In this document: in pieces, positions 1 through 34,572 of the stretch
How positions within the stretch are numbered: position 1 is the first letter of the stretch
How the letters are laid out: every line of letters begins with the position of its first letter
Source of the DNA: a virus
IMG/VR virus record: IMGVR_UViG_3300032156_000049
Location: 1-34,572 of that record
DNA length: 34,572 nucleotides
Direction: 5' to 3' (one strand)
Made by a program: the position numbers and the translations under genes
The notes under the pieces: model-generated
What the model saw: the letters and a program-made list of their open reading frames with translations, nothing else
What the model was told of the DNA's origin: nothing
Databases searched by the model: none

Positions 1-1256
1 GGAAAACCACCTACACGCTGAATAAAATTCTGGAATGGCTCGGGCCTCCCGATTCCTGCGTCTGGTATATCTGCCCGACGTATAAACAGGGACGCTTGAT
101 TTCATGGTCCGAGATTAAGCGCATGATCCCTCCAGAGGCGATGCATAAAAAACCGAACGATTCCGATCTCATCATTACGCTTAAAAACGGCTCCGAGCTG
201 TATTACATGGGGTCGGATGAGCCCGATTCCCTCCGGGGCCCTGAACCCACGGGCGTCATTTTCGACGAAGCCGCTTACCACCGGGCGGATGTATGGGCTC
301 CCGTCATCCGGCCCAATTTGTCCGTCCATAAAGCCCCGGCCCTTTTTGTCTCTACCCCCAGCGGGTTTAACTGGTTCAAGGATTTAGAGGACGCCGCCAA
401 GGACGATCCCGAATGGGCGGTGTTCCATTACACGATTTGCGACAACCCCTATATCGACAAGGACGAAATCGAGAAAATCAAAAAGAGTTGCGACCCGAGG
501 GTCTGGAACCAGGAATACATGGCAAACTACGAGTCCTCCGTGGGCCGTGTGTTCCATGAGTTCCAAGATACCGACCGCCACGTCCAGGCGTTTCCCATGC
601 CGAAGAGGGGCGATTCCTGCTACCGCGCGATCGACTGGGGAATGCGGGACGACACGGGGACTTTGTGGGCTAAAAAACTCGGCATGAAACTTTTCATTTA
701 CCGGGAACACGCTGAAAATGGGCTCCCGCCTTCGGCTCAGGCCAAGATCATCGAGAACCGGACGACCGTGGATGAGAATATCGTTTCAAACATCATCGGG
801 CACGACGCCGCGAAGTCCGACGCCGAGATGAGGGGGCTGACCGTCCAATGGCATTTCATGAACGCAGGGATCAGACCTCTCAAATTGTCCAGCCGAAAAA
901 AAGAGGGGTCGAGAGCCATGATCCAGCAGTTGATTTCAGAGGATCGTCTCGTGATCCATCCCGAATGCCGGAAACTCCGGAAACAGCTTCTGTCTTATTC
1001 GTGGAAAGACACGGCCATGGAAAAAACCGAGGACGGCGGAAACGATTTAGTCGACGCCCTTCACTACATGGCCGAGATGCTCCAGTACGATTTGCTCCTC
1101 AACCCAAGGAAAGACGAGAATTTGAGCATCGAAGAAAAAATCAAACGCCATCGCGCCGAGATCGAGGACAAATGGAAGCGTCCTCGCTATCCGCTGGAAT
1201 CGGAGAATGAGCCTAAGTCGATTTTCCAAGAAGAATCACTGGCGGGGTATCTATGA
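1..1256 (+). CDS. terL: Terminase large subunit (5' end cut off by the window)
   Basis: This is the ATPase-nuclease motor that packages DNA into the prohead. The frame is open from base 3 and has no start in the window, so the N-terminus is missing. The first visible residues are K-T-T, the end of a Walker A loop. A Walker B (GVIFDEA) lies at about 252-272 and the coupling-type motif STPSG at about 352-366. The C-terminal RNase H-like nuclease shows its acidic positions in AIDWG (about 627-641), GHDAAKSD (about 799-822) and GNDLVDALHY (about 1039-1068). An internal TTG at 96 is not a credible start because it would remove the ATPase P-loop. The stop overlaps the portal ATG (ATGA). The small terminase subunit is not recognisable in the window. 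The family call is secure; the true start is unknown. Confidence 0.93.
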   Translation, partial: KTTYTLNKILEWLGPPDSCVWYICPTYKQGRLISWSEIKRMIPPEAMHKKPNDSDLIITLKNGSELYYMGSDEPDSLRGPEPTGVIFDEAAYHRADVWAPVIRPNLSVHKAPALFVSTPSGFNWFKDLEDAAKDDPEWAVFHYTICDNPYIDKDEIEKIKKSCDPRVWNQEYMANYESSVGRVFHEFQDTDRHVQAFPMPKRGDSCYRAIDWGMRDDTGTLWAKKLGMKLFIYREHAENGLPPSAQAKIIENRTTVDENIVSNIIGHDAAKSDAEMRGLTVQWHFMNAGIRPLKLSSRKKEGSRAMIQQLISEDRLVIHPECRKLRKQLLSYSWKDTAMEKTEDGGNDLVDALHYMAEMLQYDLLLNPRKDENLSIEEKIKRHRAEIEDKWKRPRYPLESENEPKSIFQEESLAGYL

Positions 1257-22688: not shown

Positions 22689-22892
22689 ATGTTCATCAAT
22701 ATCGGCCATGGGTGGGAGCCTTGTAGCCCACCGGGATTTGGGATTGTCCACCGCCGCTCCGGGGACTCCATTAAAAAAGAGAAGTTCGTTTCGGACGTCA
22801 GGCAATTAAAGCGGTTCTCGCTGGCAAGGAAGTGGAAGATAAAATTGTACTCGGTCGTTCTCCCGTTCCGGGATCGAATGGAGTTTTACTGA
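22689..22892 (+). CDS. Doubtful small gene at the convergence point, possibly frameshifted
   Basis: A 67-codon frame directly after the holin-like gene. No clear ribosome binding site precedes the ATG. After the A6 run at 22773-22778 this frame looks less natural. The -1 frame from there to the stop at 22924 (RQAIKAVLAGKEVEDKIVLG, then VPGSNGVLLKVLRA) looks more like protein but has no normal start. Either a -1 shift at A6, a sequence error, or no gene at all is possible. It overlaps the minus-strand gene at 22798-23013. Confidence 0.25.
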   Translation: MFINIGHGWEPCSPPGFGIVHRRSGDSIKKEKFVSDVRQLKRFSLARKWKIKLYSVVLPFRDRMEFY

Positions 22893-23013
22893 AGGTCCTA
22901 CGCGCCATCAGCCCTCGCCAGTAGAAACACTCATTCGAAAGTTTATGGACCGCTTCCGCATAGGCGATGCAATGAAGGACCAACTGCTTGCGCGACATGC
23001 TCTTGTAGTCCAT
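22798..23013 (-). CDS. Small protein at the end of the early operon
   Basis: A 71-residue frame with a strong Shine-Dalgarno (AAGGGGG) before the ATG. The first 40 residues (RKQLVLHCIAYAEAVHKLS) are a natural-looking helical sequence with three cysteines or aromatics after it. The last 30 residues are Ser/Thr/Pro-rich and may be over-read. It is the last gene of the leftward unit and converges on the late genes. The function is unknown. Confidence 0.55.
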   Translation of the reverse strand: MDYKSMSRKQLVLHCIAYAEAVHKLSNECFYWRGLMARRTFSKTPFDPGTGERPSTILSSTSLPARTALIA

Positions 23014-23066
23014 TTTGACCCCCTTTTAGCTTCTCCGACGGAAAAATGACGCACAAGGATTCGATT

Positions 23067-23381
23067 CTAGGCCACTGAATTTCTCTGGCAATCCCTTATG
23101 ACCTCCGCTACGAACGACTGGGCGATTCCCTTCCCGAATTGCTGAGGAGTGAACCTAAAAACGCGCCATCCGAGCTTCCCGGCTTCGTTAAATTTTTCCA
23201 TGTCTTTTAAGTAGCCTAATCCACGAGTGTGCCGTCCCCTCGTCCAAATTCCGCCGTCGATTTCAACCGCTATCCGGTATTCAGGGAAGGCGTAGTCGAA
23301 CCTCCATTTGCGCGGCGGGGCGAATCGGTACTCGGGTACAGGGTCCAGATCGAAGGCTTTCCAGAAATAGTTGCTTGTCAT
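23067..23381 (-). CDS. Phage nuclease of the PD-(D/E)xK type
   Basis: A 104-residue protein resembling small endonucleases (Vsr/DUF559-like) that are common in phage recombination modules. The core is RFDYAFPEYRIAVEIDGG (about residues 27-44), where D29 and E40 would bind metal. TRGRHTRGLGYLKDMEKFN and GWRVFRFTPQQF follow, the last being the typical closing strand and helix. ATG 23381 has GGAGGAGAG just upstream and overlaps the stop of the preceding 55-residue gene (ATGA). A longer in-frame start lies inside that gene. A likely role is cutting branched or mismatched DNA during recombination or packaging; substrate specificity is not visible. Confidence 0.75.
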   Translation of the reverse strand: MTSNYFWKAFDLDPVPEYRFAPPRKWRFDYAFPEYRIAVEIDGGIWTRGRHTRGLGYLKDMEKFNEAGKLGWRVFRFTPQQFGKGIAQSFVAEVIRDCQRNSVA

Positions 23382-24444: not shown

Positions 24445-25038
24445 CTATTCCTCCAGTAACGATAAGCCATAGTTCAAGATGCGGAGTTTTATTTCTCTTT
24501 TTTCGGCGGCGTCGGCGGCGGCGTCGGCGGCGTAGGCGTAGGTGGCGGCGTAGGCGGCGGCGTAGGCGGCGTCGGCGGCGTAGGCGGCGGCGTAGGCGTA
24601 GGTGGCGGCGTAGGCGGCGGCGTAGGCGGCGTCGGCGGCGTAGGCGGCGGCGTAGGCGGCGGCGTCGGCGGCGTAGGCTTCGGCGGCGTCGGCGACGGCG
24701 TAGGCGGCGTAGGCGGCGGCGTAGGCGGGACTCCTCGTTTCTTTCGTGTCATTCGCTAGTACCTTCTTGGCCGCCTCTATTGCTTTTCGAGGGCGTTCGT
24801 CGTTCGGATACTTTTTCTCGAATATTTCAATTACATTCTCAGCCGCATAAATGGCGTAAGCCAAACACTGCGGGCGAGACATGACGCGGATTATGGTCCA
24901 GTTCGCCCAATCGAGTTTGTTTTCTGCAATGAGGGCGCAGAGAACTGGGATCGCTTCTCTCATCTTCTGAGACTTAAACCAATCGACTCCATCTGCACAC
25001 GCGCCTTTTTCTTTCAACCATTCTTCTGTCAGTTCCAT
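24445..25038 (-). CDS. Imm5-like protein with a long Ala/Tyr/Asp repeat
   Basis: A 197-residue protein. Residues 1-95 (TEEWLKEKGACADGVDWF, LDWANWTIIRVM, YAIYAAENVIEIFEKKYP, ERPRKAIEAAKKVL) match a family often labelled putative immunity protein (Imm5-like), which is frequent in phages and bacteria. Residues about 104-178 are nearly all Ala, Tyr and Asp in an (A-Y/D-A-A) pattern and include a 20-residue unit present twice. The end (KLRILNYGLSLLEE) is the family's normal C-terminal helix. GGAGGAATAA precedes the ATG. Ala-rich helices are usual in this family; the exact tandem repeat here is an expansion. The biochemical role of the family is unclear. Confidence 0.65.
   Translation of the reverse strand: MELTEEWLKEKGACADGVDWFKSQKMREAIPVLCALIAENKLDWANWTIIRVMSRPQCLAYAIYAAENVIEIFEKKYPNDERPRKAIEAAKKVLANDTKETRSPAYAAAYAAYAVADAAEAYAADAAAYAAAYAADAAYAAAYAATYAYAAAYAADAAYAAAYAATYAYAADAAADAAEKREIKLRILNYGLSLLEE
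24541..24657 (-). repeat. 60-bp tandem duplication in the Ala-rich gene
   Basis: Bases 24541-24600 are repeated exactly at 24601-24657 and then diverge. Both lie inside a wider tract (about 24505-24730) made of GCG, GTA and GTC triplets on the plus strand (Ala, Tyr and Asp codons on minus). The period is 20 codons, so expansion or loss keeps the frame. Confidence 0.85.
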
Positions 25039-26416: not shown

Positions 26417-26752
26417 CTATAACCCGAATTCCATCGCTACCTGCCGAGGAGATTTCAAAAGCAACTGCTCCTCGTGATCCCTGACCCTCGTCTTAAACTC
26501 AGCGTCGTCAATCAAGATCGTGCGCTCAGTCATCAACCCCGTGATGTTCCACCCCGTCAGCTTGCCCCAATAAGGGCTACGCTTCAAGTAGACGTCGTAG
26601 AGAGCCATGACTTCTGCGGCGGTAAATATCCCGCAGAGCAACTTAAGATGTTTCAAATCTTTCCCCATGAACGGATACCGCCTCCCTTTTTTCTTCTCCC
26701 ACTCTTGGCTTACGTACGCGACGACTTCTTTCCACGACTCCGACTTAGGCAT
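26417..26752 (-). CDS. Conserved phage early protein next to the methyltransferase
   Basis: A 111-residue helical protein: WKEVVAYVSQEWEKKKG, then YPFMGKDLKHLKLLCGIF, then AAEVMALYDVYL. The YPF-x-GKD-x-K-x-LK pattern followed by V-M-AL-x-D-x-Y-L recurs in small phage proteins beside replication and modification genes. The start overlaps the methyltransferase stop (TAATG). It may be a replication accessory; this is inference from context only. Confidence 0.65.
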   Translation of the reverse strand: MPKSESWKEVVAYVSQEWEKKKGRRYPFMGKDLKHLKLLCGIFTAAEVMALYDVYLKRSPYWGKLTGWNITGLMTERTILIDDAEFKTRVRDHEEQLLLKSPRQVAMEFGL

Positions 26753-27630
26753 TACTTGATCCCGAGGAGCCTTTCAAACGCTTCCCGCGCTTGGGCTGGA
26801 ACCACGCTGTTGCCCAGTCCTCTAAGGCGGTCCACTTGGTTTGGTATCCCATAACCCACTCGATCCAATCTGGGTTCGGTTTCCCACCACGACCGTATAA
26901 ATTCTTCAGTTGATTGCAAATTGATCCGCCGTTCCTCAGCGTGTAGCCTTTCCAATCCCGAGCCGTCGGCGTGCTCCATCGAATCTGATCGTTTATAGTT
27001 ACTGCGTGTTTCGATGTCCTCAACGATTCTTGGAATAGTTCCTTTGATTTGGCCCCGCGCTCCCCCATGTTTGCGTCGGGAGTTCTCCGTAACATCTTTT
27101 TCAGCTTCGTTTTTCCGTTTGTCCCTCCGTTGTTCGGGAGGCATGGCGTGGGCCAGTAACCACCATCGGGCTCTTCGGTGGTTCGCTCCCACGTCCGCAG
27201 CGGATAAAATACCCCATCGACAGTCATACCGTAGGCGGCAAAGCTCGCCAACGACTCGCTCTGCTCCTCGAACAGTAATCGCTGCGACGTTCTCCAAAAA
27301 CACGAATCTCGGTCGAATCTCGCCAACGAGCCTGATGATCTCGAAAAATAGTCCGCTACGCTCTCCTCCCAAGCCTTCTCCGCGTCCTGCGACTGAAATG
27401 TCCTGGCAGGGGAAGCCTCCGTAGATGATGTCCACGGGCGGTAACATAGAGCCATGCAACGTTCGTACGTCATCCCATATCGGAGCGAGTGGAAGTGATC
27501 GATCTGACATTCTTGACAGTAATACACATTGAGCGTATCGGTCGTTTTCACAGTAGGCGACGGGCCGAACGTACCCTTGCAGGGAGAGGGTGATTCCTCC
27601 GATACCGCTGAAGAGGTCGAGTCCGTACAT
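26752..27630 (-). CDS. dcm: DNA cytosine-5 methyltransferase
   Basis: A 292-residue enzyme that methylates cytosine C5 in DNA, probably protecting phage DNA from host restriction. Motif I is LDLFSGIGG (residues 4-12) for SAM binding. Motif IV is GGFPCQDIS with catalytic Cys75. Motif VI is FLENV (111-115), motif VIII is HRRARWW (151-157), and motif X is GNSVVP (273-278). The target-recognition region (about 160-265) is shorter than in many family members. No cognate restriction enzyme is next to it, so it is an orphan. No strong ribosome site precedes the ATG at 27630, which may hold expression low. Confidence 0.93.
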   Translation of the reverse strand: MYGLDLFSGIGGITLSLQGYVRPVAYCENDRYAQCVLLSRMSDRSLPLAPIWDDVRTLHGSMLPPVDIIYGGFPCQDISVAGRGEGLGGERSGLFFEIIRLVGEIRPRFVFLENVAAITVRGAERVVGELCRLRYDCRWGILSAADVGANHRRARWWLLAHAMPPEQRRDKRKNEAEKDVTENSRRKHGGARGQIKGTIPRIVEDIETRSNYKRSDSMEHADGSGLERLHAEERRINLQSTEEFIRSWWETEPRLDRVGYGIPNQVDRLRGLGNSVVPAQAREAFERLLGIK

Positions 27631-27652
27631 GATTTAGCCAAATATACCCACA

Positions 27653-28039
27653 TCAGAATGGTATGGGACTGTCTTCCTCTGCCCCTCCAACGGGCCTGAA
27701 ATTCGCCCACTGATCCCGCATATCCCCTGTCTTTTTGTCGGGGACATGGATCACGTCGGCCACGAACTGTTGCCCGACAACCGTTTCGCGGTCCCATAGA
27801 ATATCCCCGGCCTCGTCGGGCTTGAACCCCAACGCCATCAGCAGGGGTTTGGACAGAAAACACATCACAGCCTTGGTCATCTTCTTCCTCTGGCCGCCAG
27901 CGACCGTCGAAGTCTTGAACAGGTAATAGGGGTACCCGTTGGGAGTTTTCCGTTTCTCGACGGGCGCGTCGATGGTGAACACCAGCGCCTTCGATTGCGG
28001 GAACAGCGACCGGCCTTCAAAACTTGTTTTCTCAATCAT
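27653..28039 (-). CDS. SSB-like partner of the recombination ATPase
   Basis: A 128-residue protein. Its C-terminus, GGAEEDSPIPF, is the acidic tip typical of bacterial single-stranded DNA-binding proteins (compare D-D-D-I-P-F), which recruits partner enzymes. The rest is beta-rich with basic patches (KTSTVAGGQRKKMTK) and could be an OB fold. The ATG overlaps the ATPase stop, with GGAGG about 9 nt before it. Phage Sak4-type ATPases are often coded beside an SSB. The OB fold is an inference; the tip is seen directly. Confidence 0.6.
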   Translation of the reverse strand: MIEKTSFEGRSLFPQSKALVFTIDAPVEKRKTPNGYPYYLFKTSTVAGGQRKKMTKAVMCFLSKPLLMALGFKPDEAGDILWDRETVVGQQFVADVIHVPDKKTGDMRDQWANFRPVGGAEEDSPIPF

Positions 28040-32067: not shown

Positions 32068-32101
32068 TTGACAAACTACAAAGTTATAATGTTCTTGTCA
32101 A
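32068..32101. promoter_or_regulatory. Inverted repeat with -35 boxes, operator candidate
   Basis: TTGACAA and TTGTCAA are exact reverse complements 20 bp apart in an AT-rich gap between two early genes. The minus-strand arm is a perfect -35 box; the best -10 at 17 bp is TAGTTT, weak. The symmetry suggests a dimeric protein binding site controlling the downstream genes. Confidence 0.4.
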
Positions 32102-32334
32102 GGATTGATTGATTGCCACCAATCTTTGAAGCGCTGATCCCGTTCGCATTTTGGGCAATCGCCGGGCTCATATTCATGGAATTCGCCATCGATAACGTCA
32201 GAGTCTCCGCCGCTTGTGATCTTGGCCGTTTGACAATCGCGCCACAGGAGGCGGTGGACGGCGCAATAGTTCCGTTTGCACTCAGCGGCGAAGCATTCCG
32301 AATGATTATATTTCTCGGAAGTTGTTATTCTCAT
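32098..32334 (-). CDS. Small cysteine-rich early protein
   Basis: A 78-residue protein with several cysteine pairs (SECFAAECKRNYC near residues 12-24, and CPKC near 60-63), which suggests one or two zinc sites. GGGGTG precedes the ATG. The function is unknown. Confidence 0.55.
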   Translation of the reverse strand: MRITTSEKYNHSECFAAECKRNYCAVHRLLWRDCQTAKITSGGDSDVIDGEFHEYEPGDCPKCERDQRFKDWWQSINP

Positions 32335-32335
32335 A

Positions 32336-32560
32336 TCAGATCACCCCGTGGACACGAATTTTCGTCAGGAAATCTTCCTGATCGGCGTCTAATTTTGTCA
32401 GATAACAGCAGGTGCAATTCAAGCCAGTGATAGATGGAAGGTCCACAGGCTGGCCGCAGAGCTGGCAATGGTGCTCATCCCATACGGGTCGACAGTCGAC
32501 ACACTGGCCGTCCTGCACCTCTACCCATGAACGGCATTTTTTACACTGATCGTTATTCAT
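32336..32560 (-). CDS. Double zinc-ribbon early protein
   Basis: A 74-residue protein with four cysteine pairs: CKKC, CVDC, CQLC and CTCC. This is the layout of two zinc ribbons in tandem. The ATGA overlap with the upstream membrane gene and AAGGGGCG before the ATG support it. It may bind RNA polymerase or nucleic acids. Confidence 0.65.
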   Translation of the reverse strand: MNNDQCKKCRSWVEVQDGQCVDCRPVWDEHHCQLCGQPVDLPSITGLNCTCCYLTKLDADQEDFLTKIRVHGVI

Positions 32561-33227: not shown

Positions 33228-33665
33228 TTATAGAAGCCCTGCATTTTTTAAACTGTAAAAACCATTTTCCGCAATGACGATATGGTCGATCAGTTCAATC
33301 CCCATGATCCTCCCGGCCTCAGATATTCTTTTCGTCAATATGCAATCTTCATTGGAAGGCGAACATTCTCCCGACGGATGATTATGGACGAGGATGATCC
33401 CCGAAGAATTTGACAAGCAAGCTCCTTTGAAAATTTCTCTTGGATGAGCAAGAGAAGCCGTCAGGGTTCCGATTGAGATAACCTCCCAGCCGATTAAATT
33501 CCGTCGTGCATCCAAGAAATAGACTCGTAGTTGCTCACGGTCTAGCAACTTGAGGTCGGAAGCTATAGCGGCGATATCTTCCGGGAGCTGGATTTTTTTT
33601 GAACCTTCTTTTAATTCCGCCGAATCTTTGACGAGCGAAACTCTATACTGGGTTAGTCGATACAT
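33228..33665 (-). CDS. radC: RadC-like JAB-domain protein
   Basis: A 145-residue protein of the RadC/JAMM type. The metal motif HNHPSGE lies at residues 94-100, followed by S-P-S-N-E-D with the third ligand Asp107, and a glutamate in DREQLRVYF (near 44). It has only the JAB part, not the longer N-terminal helix-hairpin-helix region of cellular RadC. ATG 33665 has AAAGGAG 7 nt upstream; ATG 33707 falls at the predicted transcript start and is rejected. It is the first gene of the leftward unit. Activity of phage RadC-like proteins is not established; a defence-related or recombination role is possible. Confidence 0.85.
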   Translation of the reverse strand: MYRLTQYRVSLVKDSAELKEGSKKIQLPEDIAAIASDLKLLDREQLRVYFLDARRNLIGWEVISIGTLTASLAHPREIFKGACLSNSSGIILVHNHPSGECSPSNEDCILTKRISEAGRIMGIELIDHIVIAENGFYSLKNAGLL

Positions 33666-33705
33666 TTTGATAACTCCTTTCGATTTACGATCAATTTCTT
33701 TTGGC

Positions 33706-33773
33706 ATGATTAATTATAACATGATAATGAAGTAATGCAAGATAAAACATGATAAATGGGATAATATGATAAG
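33706..33773. repeat. ATGATAA repeats upstream of the early operon
   Basis: ATGATAA occurs at 33721, 33749 and 33766, with a near copy ATGATTAA at 33706. The spacing is irregular. They surround the -35 and -10 boxes of the leftward promoter. They could be operator sites or origin-type iterons in a local AT-rich stretch. Confidence 0.45.
33713..33740 (-). promoter_or_regulatory. Leftward early promoter
   Basis: On the minus strand TTGCAT (33740-33735) and a perfect TATAAT (33718-33713) are 16 bp apart. Transcription would begin near 33706 and give a leader of about 40 nt before the RadC-like start codon. Confidence 0.6.
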
Positions 33774-33830
33774 AATTGGCCGAAAGGCCCAGATTGGGCA
33801 TTAATGGCAGTATAATGGGCCTAGGGCGAG

Positions 33831-33860
33831 TTGACAAGTTAAGAGGTATAGAGTTATCAA
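33831..33860 (+). promoter_or_regulatory. Rightward promoter candidate 1
   Basis: TTGACA at 33831-33836 and TATCAA at 33855-33860 (four of six matches) with an 18-bp spacer. It reads toward the late genes. Confidence 0.4.
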
Positions 33861-33941
33861 AATCAGAAAACAGGGGCCTAGAATCGAAAGCATTTGAGGC
33901 CATACAATCGTTATTTTGAAATGGCGATTGTTGGGTCCCTA

Positions 33942-33970
33942 TTGACAAGCCGGAGAATGAATGGTAAAAG
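33942..33970 (+). promoter_or_regulatory. Rightward promoter candidate 2
   Basis: TTGACA at 33942-33947 and TAAAAG at 33965-33970 (four of six matches) with a 17-bp spacer. The expected start is near 33977, only about 75 nt before a terminator. Confidence 0.5.
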
Positions 33971-33976
33971 GGGAAT

Positions 33977-34052
33977 GTGGAAACACAAACCGACCCGGCA
34001 AATGGAACAGCGCGCGCTTGTTGCAACACGCCTAGACCTTGCCGGGTTTTTT
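33977..34052 (+). ncRNA. Putative short leader RNA
   Basis: This is the RNA expected from promoter candidate 2 ending at the terminator, about 76 nt. It contains TGTTGCAACA, a perfect palindrome, and the long-range stem of the terminator. It is not a tRNA: no T-loop or acceptor pairing is visible. It could be a λ 6S-like leader product. Confidence 0.35.
33994..34052 (+). terminator. Factor-independent terminator in the late leader
   Basis: CCCGGCAA (33994-34001) pairs with TTGCCGGG (34039-34046) in an 8-bp GC-rich stem. Six T follow at 34047-34052. The loop is long (37 nt) and holds the TGTTGCAACA palindrome. It lies between the rightward promoters and the late genes. Confidence 0.65.
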
Positions 34053-34215
34053 CTTTGGGCCGACTGGCCGCCCATTCGGCGGAACTAGGAATTCCGCTCA
34101 GATAAAATAACGTCGGCGGGAATAGCACAACAGAGCGAGCCGCCCGCGAATCAAGCGCCAGCCATCTGTCGGATAATTTCCAGCCCTCCCCGCGGAAAGG
34201 AAACCAGAGGAAGGT

Positions 34216-34569
34216 ATGGCCACACCTACGACCAAAAAAACAGAGGATAAATCAGTGAGAGAAATAGCAAATCAGTCAGCAATGCATAGACATACTCATA
34301 ATTTTAGGACGTTGAACGGGTCGCAACAGCGAACCGGAAACGGCATAAAATGGGTTGAGCGTTGCCGATGCGGATATCTGATTATCTGCGAGGCCAGTTA
34401 CAGCTTGGGATTAAACAAACCAGTCGTTACTCGCTCTCTCTTCAACCGCGAAGGCGAGAGGATACCCTTTCCAAATCAGAATAGCGATTCCGAAAACAGC
34501 CAAAGCGAAAACCAAGAGCAAAGCCAAGAGCAAAACCAAGAGGTAGAAATCGGAAAAGGAAGAATATGA
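34216..34569 (+). CDS. First gene of the rightward unit, unknown function
   Basis: A 117-residue protein. The middle has HRHTH (about 24-28) and ERCRCGY (about 48-54), a possible metal site. The C-terminal 30 residues are low-complexity Ser/Glu/Gln/Asn (QSENQEQSQEQNQE), coded by 12-nt repeats. AGAGG precedes the ATG. The stop overlaps an ATG at 34566 (ATGA), so another gene starts at the window edge. It holds the position where a small terminase subunit may be expected, but its size and sequence do not identify it as one. Confidence 0.6.
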   Translation: MATPTTKKTEDKSVREIANQSAMHRHTHNFRTLNGSQQRTGNGIKWVERCRCGYLIICEASYSLGLNKPVVTRSLFNREGERIPFPNQNSDSENSQSENQEQSQEQNQEVEIGKGRI

Positions 34570-34572
34570 GGG

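Follow-up and report, generated by a model that had tools for sequence, protein, structure and literature searches.

A promoter and a terminator-like leader hairpin ahead of the predicted late genes of an uncultured phage, with similar pairs ahead of terS in several relatives

Introduction

In the late leader of phage lambda, transcription of a late unit is attenuated near the promoter. The loading of Q and the pausing that belongs to lambda-type late control are among the topics covered in PMC7171158. GafYZ, the antiterminator of the Caulobacter gene transfer agent, is described in PMC11150451 as resembling Q neither in sequence nor in predicted fold. Here, we describe a promoter and leader hairpin in an uncultured phage for which an earlier reading of the sequence had proposed lambda-like late control, and compare them with the corresponding regions of related viruses.

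Results

Layout of the record and its relatives

The window, meaning the whole stretch of DNA analyzed, is an entire virus record of 34,572 bases, linear and without terminal repeats. Rightward genes run from position 3 to ~23,000, the first of them begun inside the terminase large subunit (TerL), and leftward genes run from the RadC-like gene down to ~24,400; the promoter and hairpin lie in the divergent region between RadC on one side and ORF 34216-34569 on the other (Table 1). A second TTGACA is present upstream, at 33831, and no tRNA or tmRNA gene was found in the window.

Relatives were collected from IMG/VR by their TerL, and the closest to the window is IMGVR_UViG_3300031997_000030, a single record that carries two handles, L008 and L018. 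The first residues of the window TerL align to ~residue 45 of its TerL, and ~2.1 kb separate the end of its ORF-34216 relative from TerL; the window record therefore lacks the stretch expected to hold the terminase small subunit gene (terS), and it ends ahead of that gene. TerL relatives in named phages share ~30% identity and were left out of the leader comparison. No DNA-level relatives of 33700-34572 were found among named phages, a scan of genome contigs gave a single weak match, and a search of openly licensed papers listed nothing on this phage group.

Two other loci in the record attracted attention. Two long frames on the minus strand, 26745-27863 and 26752-27630, overlap by ~880 nt, one encoding a cytosine-5 methyltransferase (PF00145, E 7.6e-35), the other matching PHROG 1008 (E 7.7e-18); both are open and conserved in one relative, G001 (60% and 49% identity), and the overlap looks like true dual coding. 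Separately, 24445-25038 (minus strand) encodes long Ala/Tyr/Asp repeats with an Imm5_like match (E 7.4e-6), and its product is possibly an immunity-protein relative.

Table 1. Features of the window that bear on the control region
Feature	Coordinates	Strand	Remarks
Terminase large subunit	3..1256	+	PHROG 2 (E 2.9e-32), PF03237; 5′ end cut by record end
RadC-like JAB-domain gene	33228..33707	-	PF04002 (E 2.8e-39); first gene of leftward (early) unit
Predicted early promoter TTGTCA-17-TATACT	33809..33837	-	opposite direction; scan, 10/12
GCCTAG site 1	33819..33824	+	motif count
GGGCCTAGAATCGAAA element, 16 nt	33874..33889	+	core GCCTAGAATCGAA at 33876-33888
Promoter TTGACA-17-TAAAAG	33942..33970	+	TGG ahead of -10; predicted start ~33977
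Small first leader hairpin TGTG-GAAA-CACA	33976..33987	+	fold
Main leader hairpin	33992..34048	+	9-bp perfect stem, at least 10 bp with G-U; partly paired 37-nt loop
T6 tract	34047..34052	+	predicted 3′ end of short RNA
First gene past terminator, 117-aa protein	34216..34569	+	conserved W-x-E-R-C-x-C and H-x-[HC]

A promoter and a leader hairpin with a T-run

The promoter that had been called, TTGACA/TAAAAG with 17-bp spacing, is confirmed: read directly from the sequence, the -35 occupies 33942-33947, and a 17-nt spacer separates it from the -10 at 33965-33970. The -10 matches the consensus at four of six positions and lacks the final T, and is weak; the TGG just 5′ of it forms an extended -10 (TGGTAAAAG). 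The leader ahead of ORF 34216 is ~240 nt long, and the start region is conserved. Two stem-loops are predicted in the leader. In the larger of these, ACCCGGCAA (33993-34001) pairs with TTGCCGGGT (34039-34047), the stem and loop together have an energy of -22.8 kcal/mol, and the loop carries ACAGCG and CGCCTAG. The T6 tract is followed by a C and then TTT. The spacing proposed between promoter and terminator was ~75 nt; from the predicted start to the end of T6 there are ~76 nt, which is also the predicted length of the short RNA (72 nt to the end of the stem). Of the 8-bp GC stem and T6 originally described, the T6 stands, and the stem is a perfect 9 bp whose loop is not small. The fold of 33975-34056 has an energy of -27 kcal/mol (z -2.56), equaled in 3 of 200 shuffles.

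A stock scanner reported neither promoter nor terminator at 33942-34052, because it requires a T at the sixth position of the -10 and allows loops no longer than 8. Rfam gave no matches in the window at gathering score, by which the leader is not an Rfam-listed leader RNA or riboswitch; at E 10 all hits were sub-threshold, and the cobalamin one, which scored 13.9 bits where the cut-off is 31.5, was taken as chance.

With a purpose-written scan for a promoter of at least 10 of 12 matches and a hairpin of -15 kcal/mol or lower with a T-run, 30-120 nt apart, the pair at 33942 was the single one on both strands of the 34.6 kb, and a pair arose in 1 of 30 whole-record dinucleotide shuffles; the pairing is non-random. 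Lowering the promoter limit to 9 of 12 adds a second, weaker pair at 33473/33594, inside the RadC coding region. Neither the 9-of-12 scan nor the stock scan reports a plus-strand promoter from 34052 to 34216.

The hairpin is conserved in the nearest relative and the T-run is not

In L008/L018 the order is that of the window, with a RadC-like gene at the matching position reading leftward; then come a promoter and a hairpin, and behind them a relative of ORF 34216. Its promoter, TTGACA-17-TAAACT at L008:3023, occupies the equivalent place. The stem arms, CCAGCGCGA and TCGCGCTGG, are identical to those of the window at four of nine bases per arm, and all nine pairs form in both phages, five of them changed on both sides. 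The segment ACAGCG(N16)CGCCTAG inside the hairpin is identical between the two, and the word TGGAAACA at the first leader hairpin is also common to both. Stems of nine perfect pairs around a loop of 30-42 nt are rare, with two on one strand of the window and three on one strand of L018, the leader stem included. This comparison of two sequences is good evidence that the leader hairpin is a selected RNA structure; MAFFT put the two stems one column out of register, which precluded a covariance model from the pair.

The T-run is absent after the homologous L008 stem, where the sequence is ATCGATTTTG, and what lies past the stem (ATCGATTTTGACAA) would be at best a weak terminator. The comparison thus points to a hairpin structure conserved as far as L008, and does not support conservation of termination itself, since the T-run is missing there. 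Searching viral contigs for the pattern TTGACA-ACAGCG-CGCCTAG returned 13 stretches, of which only L105, another handle for the L008 record, folds alike; the remaining 12 are probably chance matches.

Further motifs in the control region

CTAG is scarce in the record (28 occurrences against ~134 expected), and GCCTAG occurs five times on both strands, with three of these within 33819-34035, at 33819, 33876, and 34030. Three sites lie at matching places in L018. The third window site is within the leader hairpin, where the motif could be acting at the DNA level and not in the RNA.

The 13-nt intergenic GCCTAGAATCGAA is present upstream of the promoter in the window, at L018:4082, and at L021:2381; in 300 shuffled triples, no shared word exceeded 10. 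Its distance to the -35 is ~53-57 nt in the window and L008 and 17 nt in L021. A second window copy, at 23060-23072 on the minus strand, lies ~50 nt ahead of a small leftward ORF (22798-23013). GCCTAGAATCGAA may be an operator. A scan with the 16-nt GGGCCTAGAATCGAAA found 21 stretches, one of which is L105, and most of the other 20 belong to one near-identical group; in none of the 20 do the next 130 nt hold a promoter at the strength tested.

Promoter and hairpin pairs ahead of terS

We compared the 300 nt upstream of terS in 11 relatives with upstream sequence, among them L020, for which only ~125 nt are available, too short to show a promoter; L019, whose record starts at terS, was excluded from the count. 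A strong, terminator-like hairpin precedes terS in seven of the 11 (L011, L018, L013, L014, L015, L016, and L020), and a promoter together with such a hairpin in five (L011, L018, L014, L015, and L016), by thresholds that are looser than those of the strict window scan and were set after a first look. Shuffling gave a pair in 0-2 of 100 versions per terS-upstream region. By the same rule, five promoters with a pair fall in the 3,246 bases ahead of terS, compared with nine elsewhere in 270,618 bases (both strands), and two of these nine (L012:2249 and L014:949) are ahead of other genes. Across the pairs, 57-106 nt separate the predicted start from the stem end. The T-run ends at the terS ATG, or within one base of it, in L011, L018, L013, and L014.

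L018 and L011 have TerL proteins that are 95% identical and TerS proteins that are 88% identical; their leader hairpins differ in sequence, and in both a strong hairpin is followed by a T-run ending at the terS ATG. Immediately 5′ of the hairpin they share ATACGTGAA, of which ATACGT is also found in L013. As a separate observation, ATACGTRAA is kept just 5′ of otherwise different terS terminator hairpins in L018, L011, and L013, and could be a recognition site.

The arrangement is not universal in the clade: in L012 and L017 the promoter sits 4-5 nt ahead of the terS start codon, which leaves no leader, and the same scan found neither promoter nor terminator ahead of terS in L004 and L021. The L012 and L017 promoters (TTGACA, at L012:5147 and L017:1522) suggest leaderless terS mRNAs in part of the clade, as their predicted starts are those 4-5 nt from the start codon. 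Shine-Dalgarno pairing ahead of terS is weak in several relatives (-0.9 kcal/mol in L018, -0.5 in L013, and +1.7 in L016, compared with -9.0 for ORF 34216), and given this weak pairing a part for the U-tract in terS translation is possible. At L014:943-1083, ahead of a gene for a 23S rRNA-intervening-sequence-type protein (PF05635, E 1e-13), a promoter and a T-run accompany two long pairings, of 11 bp (985/1035) and 9 bp (1012/1051), that interleave in pseudoknot order.

L018 has the same first gene as the window, followed by terS with its own leader. The prediction that late genes lie downstream holds directly for ORF 34216-34569; for the packaging and structural genes it stands by analogy with the L018 gene order.

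Downstream gene and candidate antiterminators

The product of ORF 34216 is a conserved zinc-type protein, encoded downstream of the terminator, with tblastn relatives in four of 10 genomes (G001, G003, G009, and G012). It has no Pfam or PHROG match. Its AlphaFold model (mean pLDDT 68.2) is good over residues ~30-80 and has a confident beta core; Foldseek returned nothing at E 0.001, and the best VIA-align Z of 5.9 was too low for a fold name.

A zinc-ribbon protein among the small early proteins had been proposed as a possible antiterminator, an idea that the comparison does not favor: in 10 relatives, tblastn finds nothing matching the 32336-32560 product and a single match (G003) to that of 32098-32334. 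The early genes 31267 (G001 and G003) and 31801 (G001) are better conserved than these two, and the small early proteins gave no informative Pfam or PHROG match. PMC7171158 gives PF03589, PF06530, and PF06323 as Q families. The lambda-Q and Q21 models, the first two, matched none of the 13 records while recovering their controls, and the Q82-type model PF06323 matched 0 of 13 with its control not recovered either. The -35/-10 spacers, where a lambdoid late leader has its Q-binding DNA element, are few in number here and contain no clear common word between window and L018 or between L018 and L011. Together, the Q-family and early-protein searches yielded no antiterminator candidate.

Discussion

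We favor, at a probability of about 0.5, a promoter-proximal attenuator that keeps late units in check until RNA polymerase becomes resistant. Reading rightward, the promoter at 33942 would fire from host sigma-70-type signals, and the transcript would fold into the conserved hairpin; in the window phage the U-tract at its end would stop most RNA after ~76 nt. The downstream unit, from 34216 on, would then depend for its expression on polymerase that reads through, most plausibly one modified by a phage factor, and in relatives the same device would stand directly ahead of terS. Our confidence is moderate because termination in the window is predicted and the best homologue is without a T-run; the weak -10 of the window and the long terminator loop also count against an attenuator. 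The lambda-late geometry of the original prediction is nonetheless real, non-random, and recurrent at terS; its weak points are the T-run missing in L008 and the lack of a match to lambda-Q or Q21.

That the structure and its inner motifs are kept to L008 while the T-run is not would also fit a leader that is a conserved cis-acting RNA, serving the 34216 gene as a protein-binding site or in translation or stability, for which the T-run of the window is secondary and termination is not the main role. The ~240-nt leader and the conserved start region agree with this, which we regard as unlikely but deserving of weight; against it stand a T-run exactly at the stem foot, improbable by chance (the fraction of 8-mers on the window plus strand holding at least 6 T is 0.0106), and the repeated pairing of hairpin and T-run in the terS leaders. 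Insulation is a role open to intrinsic terminators that lie close to mobile-element ends, as described for Tn916 in PMC11658703, and the hairpin might similarly keep stray transcription from upstream out of the late unit, or act as a passive damper without a dedicated factor. We think this quite unlikely, as the genes upstream read leftward, so that little rightward transcription is expected, and the terminator comes after the promoter that serves the unit itself. The compactness of promoter, folded RNA, and terminator, the conserved inner motifs, and the second upstream TTGACA would suit a free-standing small RNA of ~76 nt, with the downstream gene read from another promoter. However, the L008 counterpart has no terminator, Rfam has no match in the window, and the scans offer no plus-strand promoter between 34052 and 34216, and we hold the small RNA to be improbable.

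Least probable, and in our view a long shot, is that the leader acts in cis as a put-like RNA with two stems, which would load on host polymerase at the 33942 promoter and take it past later terminators, including the one at terS, its own T-run serving as an on/off switch in the window phage. It would amount to an RNA-led timer of late genes. If the attenuator is the correct reading, early termination sets the timing of the packaging genes in a clade of uncultured phages with no recognized lambda-Q or Q21 protein, which would imply an antiterminator or RNA device not described before; the recurring terS leaders would offer a small, cheap reporter set for finding such a factor.

The locus resembles the lambdoid Q leaders (lambda, 21, and 82) in its plan of a strong promoter, a short leader to an intrinsic terminator, and, by prediction, late genes behind, and the window has, as judged from its sequence, an intrinsic terminator in a promoter-proximal leader. 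Unlike those systems, the 13 records here encode no lambda-Q or Q21 family protein, and several relatives have a T-run that abuts the terS start codon; because no Q family was found, we do not file the locus as a lambda-type Q system. The GafYZ system, as presented in PMC11150451, would be similar in that a terminator blocks a phage-like packaging cluster until an antiterminator lets transcription through, but its terminator consists of three 150-bp repeats after the first gene, whereas here one hairpin lies ~76 nt from the start, ahead of the first gene. According to PMC9378689, the HK022 put RNA is likewise an RNA of ~70 nt just past a phage promoter, in which two stem-loops are predicted and unpaired stretches are conserved; put, however, suppresses termination and is without a terminator of its own, whereas the window hairpin ends in a T-run. 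Xp10 P7 may offer a further parallel, being a small phage protein that, as reported in PMC6624301, takes host polymerase past intrinsic terminators.
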